Below are positions 19,583-25,930 of a stretch of 64,000 nt of DNA, one piece after another (positions within the stretch are counted from its first letter, which is position 1; every line of letters begins with the position of its first letter). A model generated the notes under the pieces. That model had not been told where the DNA came from, did no database searches, and saw only the letters and a program-made list of their open reading frames with translations. The translations under genes were made by a program, and so were the position numbers. The stretch is from Synechococcus sp. BIOS-U3-1 (GTDB lineage: Bacteria > Cyanobacteriota > Cyanobacteriia > PCC-6307 > Cyanobiaceae), in NCBI RefSeq assembly GCF_014279975.1, contig NZ_CP047936.1, positions 1,364,001 to 1,428,000 of the forward strand, given 5' to 3'.

Positions 19583-19756
19583 ACCACTAATCCAGTGAGG
19601 TCACGGAGACTGACCGGCAGATCACAATTGTCAGTCATTCATATTTCTGAGCATTTTTGCTTTGACGATGAAGCTGCATGTGCAGATCTGAGTTCCTTTG
19701 TGATCGACGCGGATCCGTAAAACGTGCATTCGGTCACCAAGTCGATATTCCGTTAC

Positions 19757-20485
19757 ATGCTCTACGCGCGTCGTGTTCTGTTAATTTGTACAGGTTGTGC
19801 CTGTTACAACCCATTGGGGCTCTACGTCACCTACCTCCGTCTCAGCAAGCACAACCGCAGTAACAGGAATTACGGCCTCGAAGCACAGAGGCGTGATCTG
19901 GATATTTTTCTGGGAGCTTGCTGCCCTGATACCGCTGGTTGCGATGAAGTCGGAAGCTATTTAGAAATTCAATCAGAAGCAGACGATGATCGGCCTGAAC
20001 TTAAAAAAGCCATCGTCCACTGCAGACATAAGGGGGCAACACTGCTTGTTGCCAAGCTGGATCGCTTAAGCCGCCGCGTCTCCTTCATTGCAGAACTGCT
20101 CGAGGTGAAGGGCCTCGAGTTCAAGGTCGCTTGTATGCCAAACGCAGATAAATTTCAGTTGCACATCTATGCGGGCCTGGCTGAGCAAGAACGTGAGTTC
20201 ATCAGCCAACGCACCAAGGCCGGCCTTCAACGAGCAAAAGAGCGCGGCGTCTTGCTTGGAGGTATCAGGCCAGGTATCGAAAAGGCCAATGCTGCGCGGC
20301 GTTCTCAAGCAACTGAAGCGGCGGAAAAGCTGCGCGGCTTGCTTGCTCCGATGGTTGAACGTCGTGAGACCCTTCGGGCCATGGGAGAAGCCCTAGAGCA
20401 AGCGAAGATCCTGACCTCTAGCGGCAACAGCAAGTGGAACCCCGCGCAGGTCAGCAGGGTCGTCAAACGGCTTCAGCTTCCCTAA
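19757..20485 (+). CDS. Serine recombinase (resolvase/invertase family)
   Basis: Catalytic domain with Y-L-R-L-S-K (the serine nucleophile follows the usual Y-x-R-x-S pattern), K-L-D-R-L-S-R-R, and AGLAEQEREFISQRTKAGL, all typical of resolvases. The C-terminal 60 residues end S-K-W-N-P-A-Q-V-S-R-V-V-K-R-L, the helix-turn-helix tail of this family. Length of about 240 residues fits a small resolvase, not a large phage integrase. Start is uncertain: GTG 19724, ATG 19757 or TTG 19814; the last gives the most family-like N terminus. It marks a likely mobile or island segment next to tRNA-Pro. Confidence 0.85.
   Translation: MLYARRVLLICTGCACYNPLGLYVTYLRLSKHNRSNRNYGLEAQRRDLDIFLGACCPDTAGCDEVGSYLEIQSEADDDRPELKKAIVHCRHKGATLLVAKLDRLSRRVSFIAELLEVKGLEFKVACMPNADKFQLHIYAGLAEQEREFISQRTKAGLQRAKERGVLLGGIRPGIEKANAARRSQATEAAEKLRGLLAPMVERRETLRAMGEALEQAKILTSSGNSKWNPAQVSRVVKRLQLP
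19786..19809. repeat. Inverted repeat at the start of the recombinase gene
   Basis: Arms TTGTACAGG and CCTGTTACAA (one bulged base) around TTGTG. It ends 4 bases before a TTG (19814) that could be the true start codon. It could be an operator or a recombinase binding site. Confidence 0.4.
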
Positions 20486-21595: not shown

Positions 21596-22300
21596 ATGGA
21601 GTCATCACCCAGCACCCTCTGCGTCGACATCGGAGGAACTGGGGTCAAGTTGATTGTTCTTGACTCCAAGGGATCGGAATTGTGTGACCGACAGCGTCAA
21701 GAAACCCCCCAACCAGCGACGCCAGAATCAATTCTCGAAGTCATCGAAGAGTTGACGAGCAAAGTGCCCCAATTTGAGCGTATTGCTGTTGGATTTCCTG
21801 GAGTTGTTCGCAATGGAATCATCGAAACCGCCGCAAACTTAGGCACTGACTGGCCAGGCATCAATCTTGCTGTTCAGCTTGAACAACGCTTTAACAAGCC
21901 AACTCGTGTTGCCAATGATGCCGATGTTCAGGGCTACGGATGTGTTTCTGGTGAGGGTGTTGAAATGGTGTTGACACTCGGCACAGGCATGGGATCAGCA
22001 CTATTTGTTGATGGATGCTTAGTGCCAAATCTGGAACTTGCTCATCATCTATTTAAAAAAAGTAAGACCTATGAAGATTATGTTGGCAGAGCAGCCCTTG
22101 AAACTATTGGGAAAGCAAAATGGGTTAAGCGAGTTGAAAGGGTGATATCTACAACAAAACTTATCTGGAACTGGGATTTTTTACACTTAGGTGGTGGCAA
22201 CAGCAAGCTCTTGAAAGATTCACAATTGTCCAGTGATGTGATTTTACACTCAAACAAAGCAGGTGTTTTAGGTGGATATTTCTTGTGGGAAAGCAATTGA
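21596..22300 (+). CDS. ppgK: Polyphosphate glucokinase (ROK family)
   Basis: 234 residues. The N-terminal LCVDIGGTGVKL is the ROK-family phosphate-binding loop. A-V-G-F-P-G-V-V, A-N-D-A-D-V-Q-G-Y-G and T-L-G-T-G-M-G-S-A complete the sugar-kinase core, with the catalytic Asp in A-N-D-A-D. The K-T-Y-E-D-Y-V-G-R-A and L-H-L-G-G-G-N-S-K blocks are those of polyphosphate glucokinase. It would phosphorylate glucose with polyphosphate (and often ATP). Both flanks are AT-rich spacers of more than 350 bases. Confidence 0.85.
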   Translation: MESSPSTLCVDIGGTGVKLIVLDSKGSELCDRQRQETPQPATPESILEVIEELTSKVPQFERIAVGFPGVVRNGIIETAANLGTDWPGINLAVQLEQRFNKPTRVANDADVQGYGCVSGEGVEMVLTLGTGMGSALFVDGCLVPNLELAHHLFKKSKTYEDYVGRAALETIGKAKWVKRVERVISTTKLIWNWDFLHLGGGNSKLLKDSQLSSDVILHSNKAGVLGGYFLWESN

Positions 22301-23629: not shown

Positions 23630-24082
23630 ATGTCGCCTGCAACTACTTCTGCTGAAGCGACCGGAACTCTGAAGAAGGGTCTTCACCAGGATGGGCGACG
23701 TATGACGCCACAGAGGCGCCTGGTGCTTGACCTGTTCGAACAGATTGGCAGCGGAAGTCACCTCAGTGCAGAAGAGGTCCATCGTCAGCTTGTGGACAAT
23801 CAATCCAAGGTTTCGCTTGCAACCATCTACCGCACCCTGCGTTTGTTAGTGGAGATGGACTTTTTGCAGGAGCTGGAGCTTAGAGATGGTGGCAGTCGGT
23901 TCGAGCTTGCAGATGCCGAACATATCCACCACCATCACCTCGTTTGCGTGCGCTGCGGACGAACCGAGGAATTTGAAAATGAGCCGGTTCTCCAGGCAGG
24001 TCGAGATGCCTGCAAACAGTTTGAATTTGAACTGATCGATTCCAGCCTGAACGTTCGTGGAATCTGTCCAGAGTGCCGCTGA
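23630..24082 (+). CDS. Fur-family transcriptional regulator (Fur/PerR type)
   Basis: 150 residues. The N-terminal winged helix carries R-M-T-P-Q-R-R-L-V-L and V-S-L-A-T-I-Y-R-T-L, the DNA-reading helix of the family. The metal region is A-E-H-I-H-H-H-H-L-V-C106-V-R-C109, with a second pair C146-P-E-C149; the two pairs form the structural zinc site. Whether it senses iron, zinc or peroxide cannot be decided. A perfect palindrome stands just upstream, and the convergent neighbour is a His/Cys-rich protein, which hints at a metal-linked role. Confidence 0.92.
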   Translation: MSPATTSAEATGTLKKGLHQDGRRMTPQRRLVLDLFEQIGSGSHLSAEEVHRQLVDNQSKVSLATIYRTLRLLVEMDFLQELELRDGGSRFELADAEHIHHHHLVCVRCGRTEEFENEPVLQAGRDACKQFEFELIDSSLNVRGICPECR

Positions 24083-24092
24083 CTTGGTCTAT

Positions 24093-24581
24093 CTAGTGAT
24101 GGTCCATTGAATGCTCAGTGCAAGGCATCCAGTGACTTCCCATCGGATGAACTCCCTCACAGCCGATCAACCTGGCCTGTGCTTCAGCTTCAGCTTTGGT
24201 TGGAAAGGCCAGAAAGCGTGGATCATCCTTTGACTCAGCTCGGCTGTTGTGTTGATGGCTGTTGTGGTGATCGCTGGTGTGGTCCTGACTACCGCTACCG
24301 CCAATTTTGACCAAACCCATGCTCATCGGGCCAACGGTCCAGACCCCCATGGTGTTGGCTCCAATCGCCAGCAGACCCATTCCCACAATCGACAGATTGA
24401 TGACGCCCATGGCGACGACACCGATGGACACCACACCCATCGGAACGATGCCAATACAGATCACACCCATCGGGACGATCCCAATTGACACGGTACCGAG
24501 CGGGGCGATTCCAATGGCCAAACGTTTGGGCTTACTGCCGCAGTGCGCTGGCGTCGAATTGGGTGGGGAGGATTTGGTCAT
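24093..24581 (-). CDS. Decapeptide-repeat protein with DUF3721-like metal-binding C terminus
   Basis: 162 residues in three parts. Residues about 20-92 are seven tandem ten-residue repeats of the form x-x-[SAC]-I-G-I-V-P-M-G, hydrophobic and glycine-rich, predicting a short beta-solenoid or membrane-associated stack. A His/Asp/Ser-rich linker follows (H-T-S-D-H-H-N-S-H-Q-H). The end has A-E-A-Q-A-R-L-I-G-C-E-G-V-H-P-M-G and H-W-M-P-C, the DUF3721 pattern of small putative metal-binding proteins. It is convergent with the Fur-family gene, 10 bases apart. A link to metal handling is inference. Confidence 0.75.
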   Translation of the reverse strand: MTKSSPPNSTPAHCGSKPKRLAIGIAPLGTVSIGIVPMGVICIGIVPMGVVSIGVVAMGVINLSIVGMGLLAIGANTMGVWTVGPMSMGLVKIGGSGSQDHTSDHHNSHQHNSRAESKDDPRFLAFPTKAEAEAQARLIGCEGVHPMGSHWMPCTEHSMDHH

Positions 24582-24636: not shown

Positions 24637-24897
24637 ATGAATCAATTCACTCGAGAGCTAACACAGGAGCTGCTGGTGATCCGTGCGCGAGACGTCACAG
24701 AAGGGATCGCAGCTGTTTTGGCTGTTCGCAGTCACAAAACAGTGGTACTCGATCTCACCTCCATGGATAACGCCCAGGCGCAACGCACCGCTGATTTCGT
24801 CTCCGGTGGAGTGCAGGCCGTCGACGGTGAGGAACATCGCATTGGAGAACACGTGTTCTTGTTCACACCAGCGGGTGTTCAGGTGACTCTCAACTGA
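24637..24897 (+). CDS. SepF-like cell division domain protein, short form
   Basis: 86 residues from ATG 24637 (a longer start at 24598 is possible). The sequence from L-L-V-I-R-A-R-D through K-T-V-V-L-D-L-T-S-M and AQRTADFVSGGVQAVDGEEH to FLFTPAGVQV is the whole SepF beta domain, which binds FtsZ and polymerises. The membrane-binding amphipathic helix and linker of normal SepF (about 150-200 residues) are missing. It may be a second, regulatory copy. The stop overlaps arsS by 8 bases, convergent. Confidence 0.85.
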   Translation: MNQFTRELTQELLVIRARDVTEGIAAVLAVRSHKTVVLDLTSMDNAQAQRTADFVSGGVQAVDGEEHRIGEHVFLFTPAGVQVTLN

Positions 24898-25930
24898 GCG
24901 AACCACCACAGCTAGACCCATTGCCAGCCGTACACCCAAAACAGTGCTCAGCCACAGCAATCGGCTGATCTATCAAACCATTCGCTGCGCTGAGTAGATC
25001 TGCAAGCTTTCGAGGTCCGTTGTTGGTTGCAAGATTGAGCTGTTGGTTGAAATCGCAGTCATAGAGATCACCGGTCCAGCTCACACTGATCAGACTTCGA
25101 CACATGACCGCATGAATGTTTTCCGGCCGATGGGCTTCTCGCAGGGTTTGCTGGTAAGGCTCAAGCTGACCTTGATGCTGCAAATCTCTCGCAAAGCGCT
25201 GGATCGGCATGTTGGTGATCGTCAGCAAGTGGGAGAACGAAATTCCGTGCGTTGATGACAAGGCCTGCCGATATTGAGCTTCAAGTGGCTCCTGAGCCGG
25301 AGGAAGAGAAGGACCTGATGGGTTGAACACCAGATCAAGTTGCAATGGCGAACCGGGTTGGGCATACCCCAGCTGATTCAACTGCTTTAGACCTGCAATG
25401 CTGCGCTCGTAGACACCCTGGCCTCGCTGTAGATCCACCGTCTCCTTCTGGTAGCAGGGAAGAGAAGCAACCACCCTCACACCCATTGCTGCAAGGAATT
25501 CAGCTAGGTCCTCGTATCCGGGTTCGCTGAGGATCGTGAGGTTGCAGCGATCAATCACTTCCACACCAAGAGCTCTGGCCGCCGCAACAAGCTCACGAAA
25601 CTGAGGATGCAGTTCTGGTGCACCGCCAGTGAGATCCAGACAGCGAAGATCAAGACAGGCGAGCACCTCTGGAATGAGATCAATCAGCTCCCCGTCCATC
25701 ATTTCCTTCCTCCAGGGGCCAGCGTTCACATGACAGTGGCTGCAGGTCTGATTGCAGCGATAGCCGAGATTGACCTGCAGAGTGGTCAATTTGCTTCGGC
25801 GAACGGGGGGGAACCTCAGCGTTTCGGGAAAGGTTGATGTCAACGTCTTGGAGCGATCTGAAGCAATGGCCTGATTGGATTCTGACGAAACACACTCCGA
25901 TCTAGGACAACACTGTTCAACCAACAACAC
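24890..25930 (-). CDS. arsS: Radical SAM protein, ArsS-like (arsenosugar biosynthesis)
   Basis: 346 residues. The radical-SAM cluster motif is C-N-Q-T-C-S-H-C (CxxxCxxC), then L-T-G-G-A-P-E-L. The C-terminal part (C-R-S-L-I-S-V-S-W-T-G-D-L-Y-D-C-D-F-N-Q) and the end C-F-G-C-T-A-G-N-G-S-S-C-G-G-S are the DUF3641 pattern of ArsS, which joins an adenosyl group to methylated arsenic on the way to arsenosugars. The usual partner methyltransferase ArsM is not next to it. The gene follows stpA by 9 bases. Start is GTG 25930 or further in. Confidence 0.87.
   Translation of the reverse strand: MLLVEQCCPRSECVSSESNQAIASDRSKTLTSTFPETLRFPPVRRSKLTTLQVNLGYRCNQTCSHCHVNAGPWRKEMMDGELIDLIPEVLACLDLRCLDLTGGAPELHPQFRELVAAARALGVEVIDRCNLTILSEPGYEDLAEFLAAMGVRVVASLPCYQKETVDLQRGQGVYERSIAGLKQLNQLGYAQPGSPLQLDLVFNPSGPSLPPAQEPLEAQYRQALSSTHGISFSHLLTITNMPIQRFARDLQHQGQLEPYQQTLREAHRPENIHAVMCRSLISVSWTGDLYDCDFNQQLNLATNNGPRKLADLLSAANGLIDQPIAVAEHCFGCTAGNGSSCGGSLS

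Follow-up and report, generated by a model that had tools for sequence, protein, structure and literature searches.

What might be the role of a small protein that joins a hydrophobic decapeptide repeat to a DUF3721-like end? The question is raised by a gene of Synechococcus sp. BIOS-U3-1 lying within a 64,000-nucleotide stretch (contig NZ_CP047936.1, positions 1,364,001 to 1,428,000), the whole of which is referred to here as the window. Its open reading frame runs on the minus strand from an ATG at 24581 to a stop codon ending at 24093, and it is real, since 42 loci encode a relative in which the repeat is conserved column by column. The gene, the parts of its product and the convergent neighbour are the following:

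24093..24581, minus strand: GLTT-repeat / DUF3721 fusion protein of 162 aa (open reading frame, Pfam, relatives in 42 loci)
24525..24548, minus strand: N-terminal motif AHCGSKPK, residues 12-19 (alignment of 41 sequences)
24303..24521, minus strand: seven decapeptides, residues 21-93 (Pfam, alignment, self-similarity)
24207..24302, minus strand: His/Asp-rich linker, residues 94-125 (variable; His absent from 26 of 42 loci)
24108..24206, minus strand: DUF3721 unit, residues 126-158 (Pfam, 41-sequence alignment, AlphaFold2)
23630..24082, plus strand: Fur-family regulator, convergent with the fusion gene (Fur proteins are the nearest solved chains)

The Pfam GLTT model (PF01744) recognizes the repeat in four stretches (E = 1.3e-13; 50.7 bits, above the gathering cut-off of 21 bits), and residues 126-158 cover all 33 positions of the DUF3721 model (PF12518; E = 1.3e-16; 60.4 bits, cut-off 27 bits), which bears out the DUF3721-like end proposed in the initial annotation of this gene. 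No NCBIfam model was found for the fusion protein. The DUF3721 unit contains Cys141, His145, Met147, a WMPC motif at 151-154, which we take to be typical of DUF3721, and His157. Across 41 aligned sequences Cys141 and Cys154 are invariant and His145, Met147, Met152 and His157 nearly so, and His13, Cys14, Gly15, Lys17, Pro18 and Lys19 of the N-terminal motif are invariant as well. A few near-identical rows were omitted from alignments A1 and A3, and the L008 sequence, which contains X, was kept out of A1 and of the structure predictions. While the repeat and the AHCGSKPK motif are nearly fixed in the 41 sequences, the linker is not conserved: it has five His in the window protein but lacks His in 23 of 29 Prochlorococcus loci and in three of the 13 remaining loci (L019, L020, L047). 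The His/Asp-rich linker described earlier is thus present but not essential, and a His-rich linker as a defining part of the protein is ruled out.

The repeat consists, as first annotated, of seven decapeptides, of the type S-I-G-I-V-P-M-G-V-V, whose closing motif recurs at residues 28, 38, 48, 58, 68, 78 and 88. At these positions, which form the ladder discussed below, the window protein has Leu at 28 and Met at 38, 48, 58, 68, 78 and 88. Self-similarity peaks at offset 10 (z = 9.1) and is also high at offsets 5 and 15 (z = 7.1 and 6.1), all three values exceeding those of all 2000 shuffles; the repeat unit is therefore a pentapeptide x-h-G-h-h alternating in pairs. Residues 21-91 include no charged residue (GRAVY 1.78), and Gly occurs every five residues. 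On the solenoid initially foreseen, the AlphaFold2 models speak neither for nor against: in both, strands recur about every ten residues along the repeat, the ladder residue falls between them and helices are absent, but the mean pLDDT is only 47 (41 sequences) and 45 (trimmed repeat, 42 sequences). Adding five divergent paralogues to the trimmed repeat did not raise this confidence. In the DUF3721 part (pLDDT about 60-75 by blocks), a helix (129-139) and a hairpin (143-147/150-154) are predicted, with Cys141 and Cys154 at or next to the hairpin ends. Among solved structures, profile searches found no relative and no PDB match was significant; Foldseek, run on a low-confidence model, gave nothing below E = 1.3, the value of its top match, the R2 pyocin spike, which was not used.

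The 42 loci found by a genome-contig scan belong to Synechococcus and Prochlorococcus, and the one metagenome bin that contains two of them is labelled gammaproteobacterium; some share a contig (L075 with L040, L074 with L038). Among 151 sampled genomes of this picocyanobacterial family, 135 gave some match and 112 a match spanning both halves, defined as a listed row reaching from model position 20 or lower to 140 or higher; a few of these contain an in-frame stop. The combination of parts, initially thought new, is thus a true fusion but not a one-off. Other family genomes (L064-L068, L070-L072) encode a repeat-only protein with a His-rich tail instead of the fusion, and in one Prochlorococcus-type genome an in-frame stop within the repeat splits the fusion gene (L073:2133-2576, plus strand). 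In 29 of the 42 loci the same strand also carries, at a distance of no more than 200 bases, a stand-alone DUF3721 gene; by eye, a signal peptide or lipobox stands at the start of these proteins. Directly after the fusion gene, five Prochlorococcus loci encode an extra small protein of about 65-85 aa that consists of the repeat, without DUF3721:

L033:4209-4442, extra repeat-only protein
L038:5431-5682, extra repeat-only protein
L040:5456-5689, extra repeat-only protein
L046:5458-5691, extra repeat-only protein
L048:1334-1567, extra repeat-only protein

A search of the phylum yielded matches in 93 of 386 genomes, including repeat-only proteins outside the family, and a search of the class with a broader alignment in 118 of 388. 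Relatives that consist of the repeat alone thus occur throughout the cyanobacterial class. From the loci of both searches, 54 distant loci were chosen, which are not all those found. Left out were the same-genus rows G247, G368 and G472, and also G486, G203 and G485; second copies in G444, G610, G562 and G733; and the weak class matches G512, G224, G521, G570, G567, G502, G700 and G646. The 54 proteins range from 60 to 223 aa, 43 of them being 100-130 aa long. None has the WM-x-C or GC-x-G-x-H motif of DUF3721, so that in this sample the fusion is seen only in the picocyanobacterial family. GLTT scored above its gathering threshold in seven of seven repeat-bearing relatives scanned. No viral relative was confirmed in IMG/VR with alignments A1 and A2; 17 phage records match the repeat, some also part of the linker, at 27-31% identity, and the DUF3721 half had no phage match at E 1. 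The matching phages are those of Acinetobacter, Salmonella, Edwardsiella and Enterobacteria, and some of the proteins are annotated as pentapeptide repeat. For one repeat-only relative, plasmids gave no match at E 1e-8.

When the 54 distant and 42 family proteins were aligned (n = 96), two ladder columns proved to be restricted to Met and His. Column 38 holds His in 39 and Met in 15 distant proteins, column 48 His in 38 and Met in 16; both hold Met in all 42 family proteins, and neither has a third residue. Met occupies position 58 in 96/96 proteins, position 68 in 95/96 (one Ser) and position 78 in all 94 that have a residue there, while column 88 is less fixed (Met in 38/54 distant and 16/42 family proteins). 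At column 28 the family has Leu in 42/42, and the distant proteins have His (34), Thr (12), Ser (3), a single Ile, Arg and Ala, and two gaps. The most frequent distant pattern is His-His-His-Met-Met-Met-Met (31/54). Of the 112 His found within residues 20-83 of the distant relatives, 111 are on columns 28, 38 and 48, and 48 of the 54 carry a C-terminal tail with at least three His. Between the ladder positions, Ile, Val, Leu and Phe replace one another in the hydrophobic columns. When columns 28, 38 and 48 were excluded from tree building, only about two changes of state at 38/48 were counted; the case thus rests on constraint, that is, on the lack of a third residue, and not on many independent exchanges.

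The genes around the distant relatives give this ladder a context. In Synechocystis the switch between plastocyanin and cytochrome c6 is operated by the copper-sensing pair PetR and PetP, with a regulon of four proteins, two of unknown function, according to the accessible text of two reports (PMC7896320, PMC13421787). Slr0601 and Slr0602 of this regulon are candidates for the Synechocystis homologue of the repeat protein; the accessible part of a third report describes Slr0601 only as a small protein of unknown function (PMC12382314). Copper genes seen in the first 20 distant loci were confirmed with Pfam and then served as queries against all 54 distant loci and against 40 control loci, which were drawn from 14 of these genomes. 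The Pfam-confirmed set comprised two BlaI/CopY-type repressors with BlaR1/M48-type proteases (M56 scores being below the cut-off), two c-type cytochromes, CopC-CopD, and a multicopper oxidase with DUF411. By NCBIfam, the three repressors scanned were nearest to CopY_TcrY, below its cut-off, and the two cytochromes were nearest to PetJ, one above and one below the cut-off.

Homologues of petR/petP or petJ were found within about 4 kb in 14 of 54 distant loci and in 0 of 40 control loci (Fisher p = 2e-4). The link is weaker at the genus level (p = 0.03), where it holds for 8 of 26 genera and for none of the 14 control genomes, and among loci fetched after the queries had been fixed 10 of 34 were linked; six of these belong to genera from which queries had come and four to new ones. 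With multicopper oxidase/DUF411, CusBA and metal P-type ATPase included, the count rose to 18 of 54 against 1 of 40 controls; the matches in control loci were one distant CusA-type gene and one Fur gene. The petR/petP/petJ gene is adjacent in 10 of the 14 loci and 1.5-3.5 kb away in L137, L146, L152 and L160. In six loci of one genus the stop codon of the petJ-like gene overlaps by one base (TAGTG or TGATG) the first possible start of the repeat gene, taken mechanically as the first start codon, which is the arrangement of translational coupling; in L099, one of these six, the PetJ model of NCBIfam scores 117 against a cut-off of 135. In L103, L140 and L106 the repeat gene, petR and petP follow one another on one strand, with 29-45 bases between the repeat gene and petR. 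CopC/CopD occur in three petJ loci, and other distant loci contain a multicopper oxidase with DUF411 (two), a CusBA-like pump (one) or a heavy-metal P-type ATPase (one); this last, in L163, scores better as a cadmium/zinc than as a copper type, and the repeat protein there is short (60 aa). The accessible portion of a genomic-context study of petR lists comB and petJ as further neighbours and makes no mention of the repeat gene (PMC9252766). His is present at 38 and 48 in 18/18 distant loci with a copper or heavy-metal neighbour, while 0/16 distant loci with Met at 48, the type of the window protein, have such a neighbour.

Because Met recurs every ten residues in fusion with a Cys/His unit, and because distant relatives often lie beside copper-controlled photosynthesis genes, the protein is probably metal-binding, perhaps with copper as a candidate metal. 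The metal role proposed in the initial annotation thus draws support from the Met/His-only columns and the relatives' neighbourhoods; its 'sensor' part draws none, and a 'sink' is conceivable. Our preferred reading, held tentatively, is that of a small, membrane-associated Met/His-ladder protein that handles metal, most likely Cu(I). As the copper-linked loci are all of the His type, none of the 16 Met-type loci is linked, and no PetR-type (PF03965) gene was found in the window's genome, copper reaches the window protein by homology only. No petR, petP or petJ homologue was found in the family loci searched, nor beside the window gene. Moreover, within flanks of at most 5 kb, 19 of 42 family loci show none of the sought genes except for one generic ABC ATPase match, which, together with the His type of the copper-linked loci, limits confidence in the ladder readings.

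Metal genes do recur around the family's fusion gene, where the neighbours point to iron or zinc, or to nothing. The convergent Fur-family regulator noted initially is indeed there in the window (its best NCBIfam match is a Fur model, below the cut-off), but such a gene is found in only 16 of 42 loci and is absent from the other 26; the 16 are presumably all of Synechococcus or low-light Prochlorococcus type. In the same 16 loci a radical SAM gene resembling ArsS lies upstream of the fusion; that of the window (24890-25930, minus strand) scores above the cut-off of an arsenosugar biosynthesis model. A short stand-alone protein of SepF type is encoded divergently from the fusion gene, 55 bases away (24637-24897, plus strand), and a gene of this type occupies that place in 12 of the 16 loci. 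Further off, translations read by eye resemble a serine recombinase (19724-20485, plus strand) and a ROK-type sugar kinase (21596-22300, plus strand). In Prochlorococcus-type loci L022, L029, L036, L213 and L216, a porin gene is divergent from the DUF3721/fusion pair; the porin has a His-rich start (L213), and its match to the iron uptake porin is weak and falls short of the cut-off. The neighbours of the fusion and of a DUF3721 paralogue in L222 are ZnuA, ABC-3, ABC ATPase and ArsP_1/TIGR03943-type genes; in L216 the porin flanks one side and an ABC-3/ATPase/ZnuA group the other, and L040 has a ZnuA-like gene (L075 being the same contig). The window's genome carries one stand-alone DUF3721 gene between two ZnuA/ABC-3 clusters, in an island like that of L222, and a third DUF3721 gene (L211:8738-8974, plus strand) divergent from a CusB/CusA (CusA/CzcA-type) efflux pump. 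Both settings speak for a metal-handling role. Compared with the other DUF3721 proteins, the product of the third gene is missing the core Met and the final His. From upstream regions read by eye, we claim no shared Fur- or Zur-like box.

Zinc or iron handling in the window's family is the main rival, although we regard it as doubtful: the DUF3721 end, with the His linker where present, would do the work and the repeat would be an anchor. The ZnuA/ABC-3-type genes of L222, L216 and L040 and the 16 convergent Fur genes speak for it, as do the uncharacterised genes that the Zur-repressed znu cluster of WH8102 contains according to the accessible text of one study (PMC9337993). Against it, the repeat is far better conserved than the linker, and the distant relatives have the ladder without DUF3721, some of them beside copper genes. 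Thioethers are, besides, not usual zinc ligands, and the family's zinc and iron neighbours were counted without control loci, which covered the distant set.

The uncharged, strongly hydrophobic stretch 21-91 with its regular Gly would suit a structural, membrane-embedded beta stack, in which Met and His serve packing or oxidant scavenging and metal genes are neighbours for regulatory reasons only. Met is readily oxidised, and the tie to petJ is one to photosynthetic electron transport. Such a stack seems improbable, since columns 38 and 48 take His and not Leu, Ile or Val, while neighbouring columns swap Ile, Val, Leu and Phe, and since the His-rich tail goes with the repeat in 48 of 54 distant relatives. 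Least likely is a redox protein with Cys141 and Cys154 as a switchable disulfide and the repeat as an anchor: both Cys are invariant and at or next to the predicted hairpin ends, but the nearly invariant His145, Met147, Met152 and His157 around them suit metal binding better.

On the preferred metal-handling reading, every decapeptide would contribute a single soft ligand, which is Met in the window protein and His or Met in relatives, always at the same position of a beta-type repeat. The evenly spaced thioether and imidazole ligands would form a ladder within a stack that is hydrophobic and probably associated with the membrane. The N-terminal His-Cys motif, with its Lys/Arg-rich flank, may lie on the cytoplasmic side, and the Cys/His/Met hairpin of DUF3721 across the membrane, as in the stand-alone DUF3721 proteins, which by eye look secreted or lipid-anchored. 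A second binding unit would then lie outside the cytoplasm, namely the His tail in relatives and DUF3721 in picocyanobacteria. The ladder could hold metal or pass it between both ends, which would allow the protein to buffer or allocate metal as the supply varies; this topology and any direction of transfer are what we infer. In relatives, copper might be buffered or passed during the exchange of plastocyanin and cytochrome c6, which would fit their operon partners. A bolder proposal, which we consider unlikely as a whole, would see here a copper protein of a new kind. Within its hydrophobic beta stack a linear Met/His ladder, its ligands one strand apart, would hold or relay Cu(I); the ancestral protein would have been produced together with cytochrome c6, controlled by the PetRP copper switch, and Synechococcus and Prochlorococcus would have remodelled it by fusion to an extracytoplasmic Cys/His/Met unit.

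Picocyanobacteria perform a large part of ocean photosynthesis under metal scarcity, and the fusion occurs, with no function assigned, in 112 of 151 sampled family genomes. Where, in other cyanobacteria, a relative overlaps the gene of cytochrome c6 or comes before the copper-sensing PetRP pair, that relative can be put to the test as a candidate for an unknown step in switching between plastocyanin and cytochrome c6; if the copper proposal is true, holding copper on a Met/His ladder within a repeat fold would be novel. A literature search, mostly without subscription papers, found none for DUF3721 or 'GLTT repeat', searches combining pentapeptide repeats or ladders with copper, and Synechococcus with copper, returned no title or opening of an abstract on this family, and a word search of a zinc-toxicity paper (PMC8374608) had no match.

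Among known systems, the pentapeptide repeats of PF01469 share the five-residue period, and match weakly (E = 0.18 for the window protein, 0.003 for L157, below the gathering score), the window protein reaching 12.1 bits against a cut-off of 26.4. Their consensus has Leu or Phe at the unit centre, where the window protein has Gly. Small Met/His-rich copper proteins such as CopC/PcoC, likened here by description, have clustered Met and His, and copper genes lie near some relatives of the window protein; the latter, however, would carry its ligands in a ten-residue ladder of a hydrophobic repeat with no significant match to solved proteins. The stand-alone PF12518 proteins read here have, by eye, a signal peptide or lipobox and no repeat, whereas in the window protein DUF3721 is fused to the repeat. 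By profile, the repeat is the same as that of PF01744 (GLTT), for which the library gives no function, and whose Met/His ladder and copper neighbourhood are observations of the present analysis.
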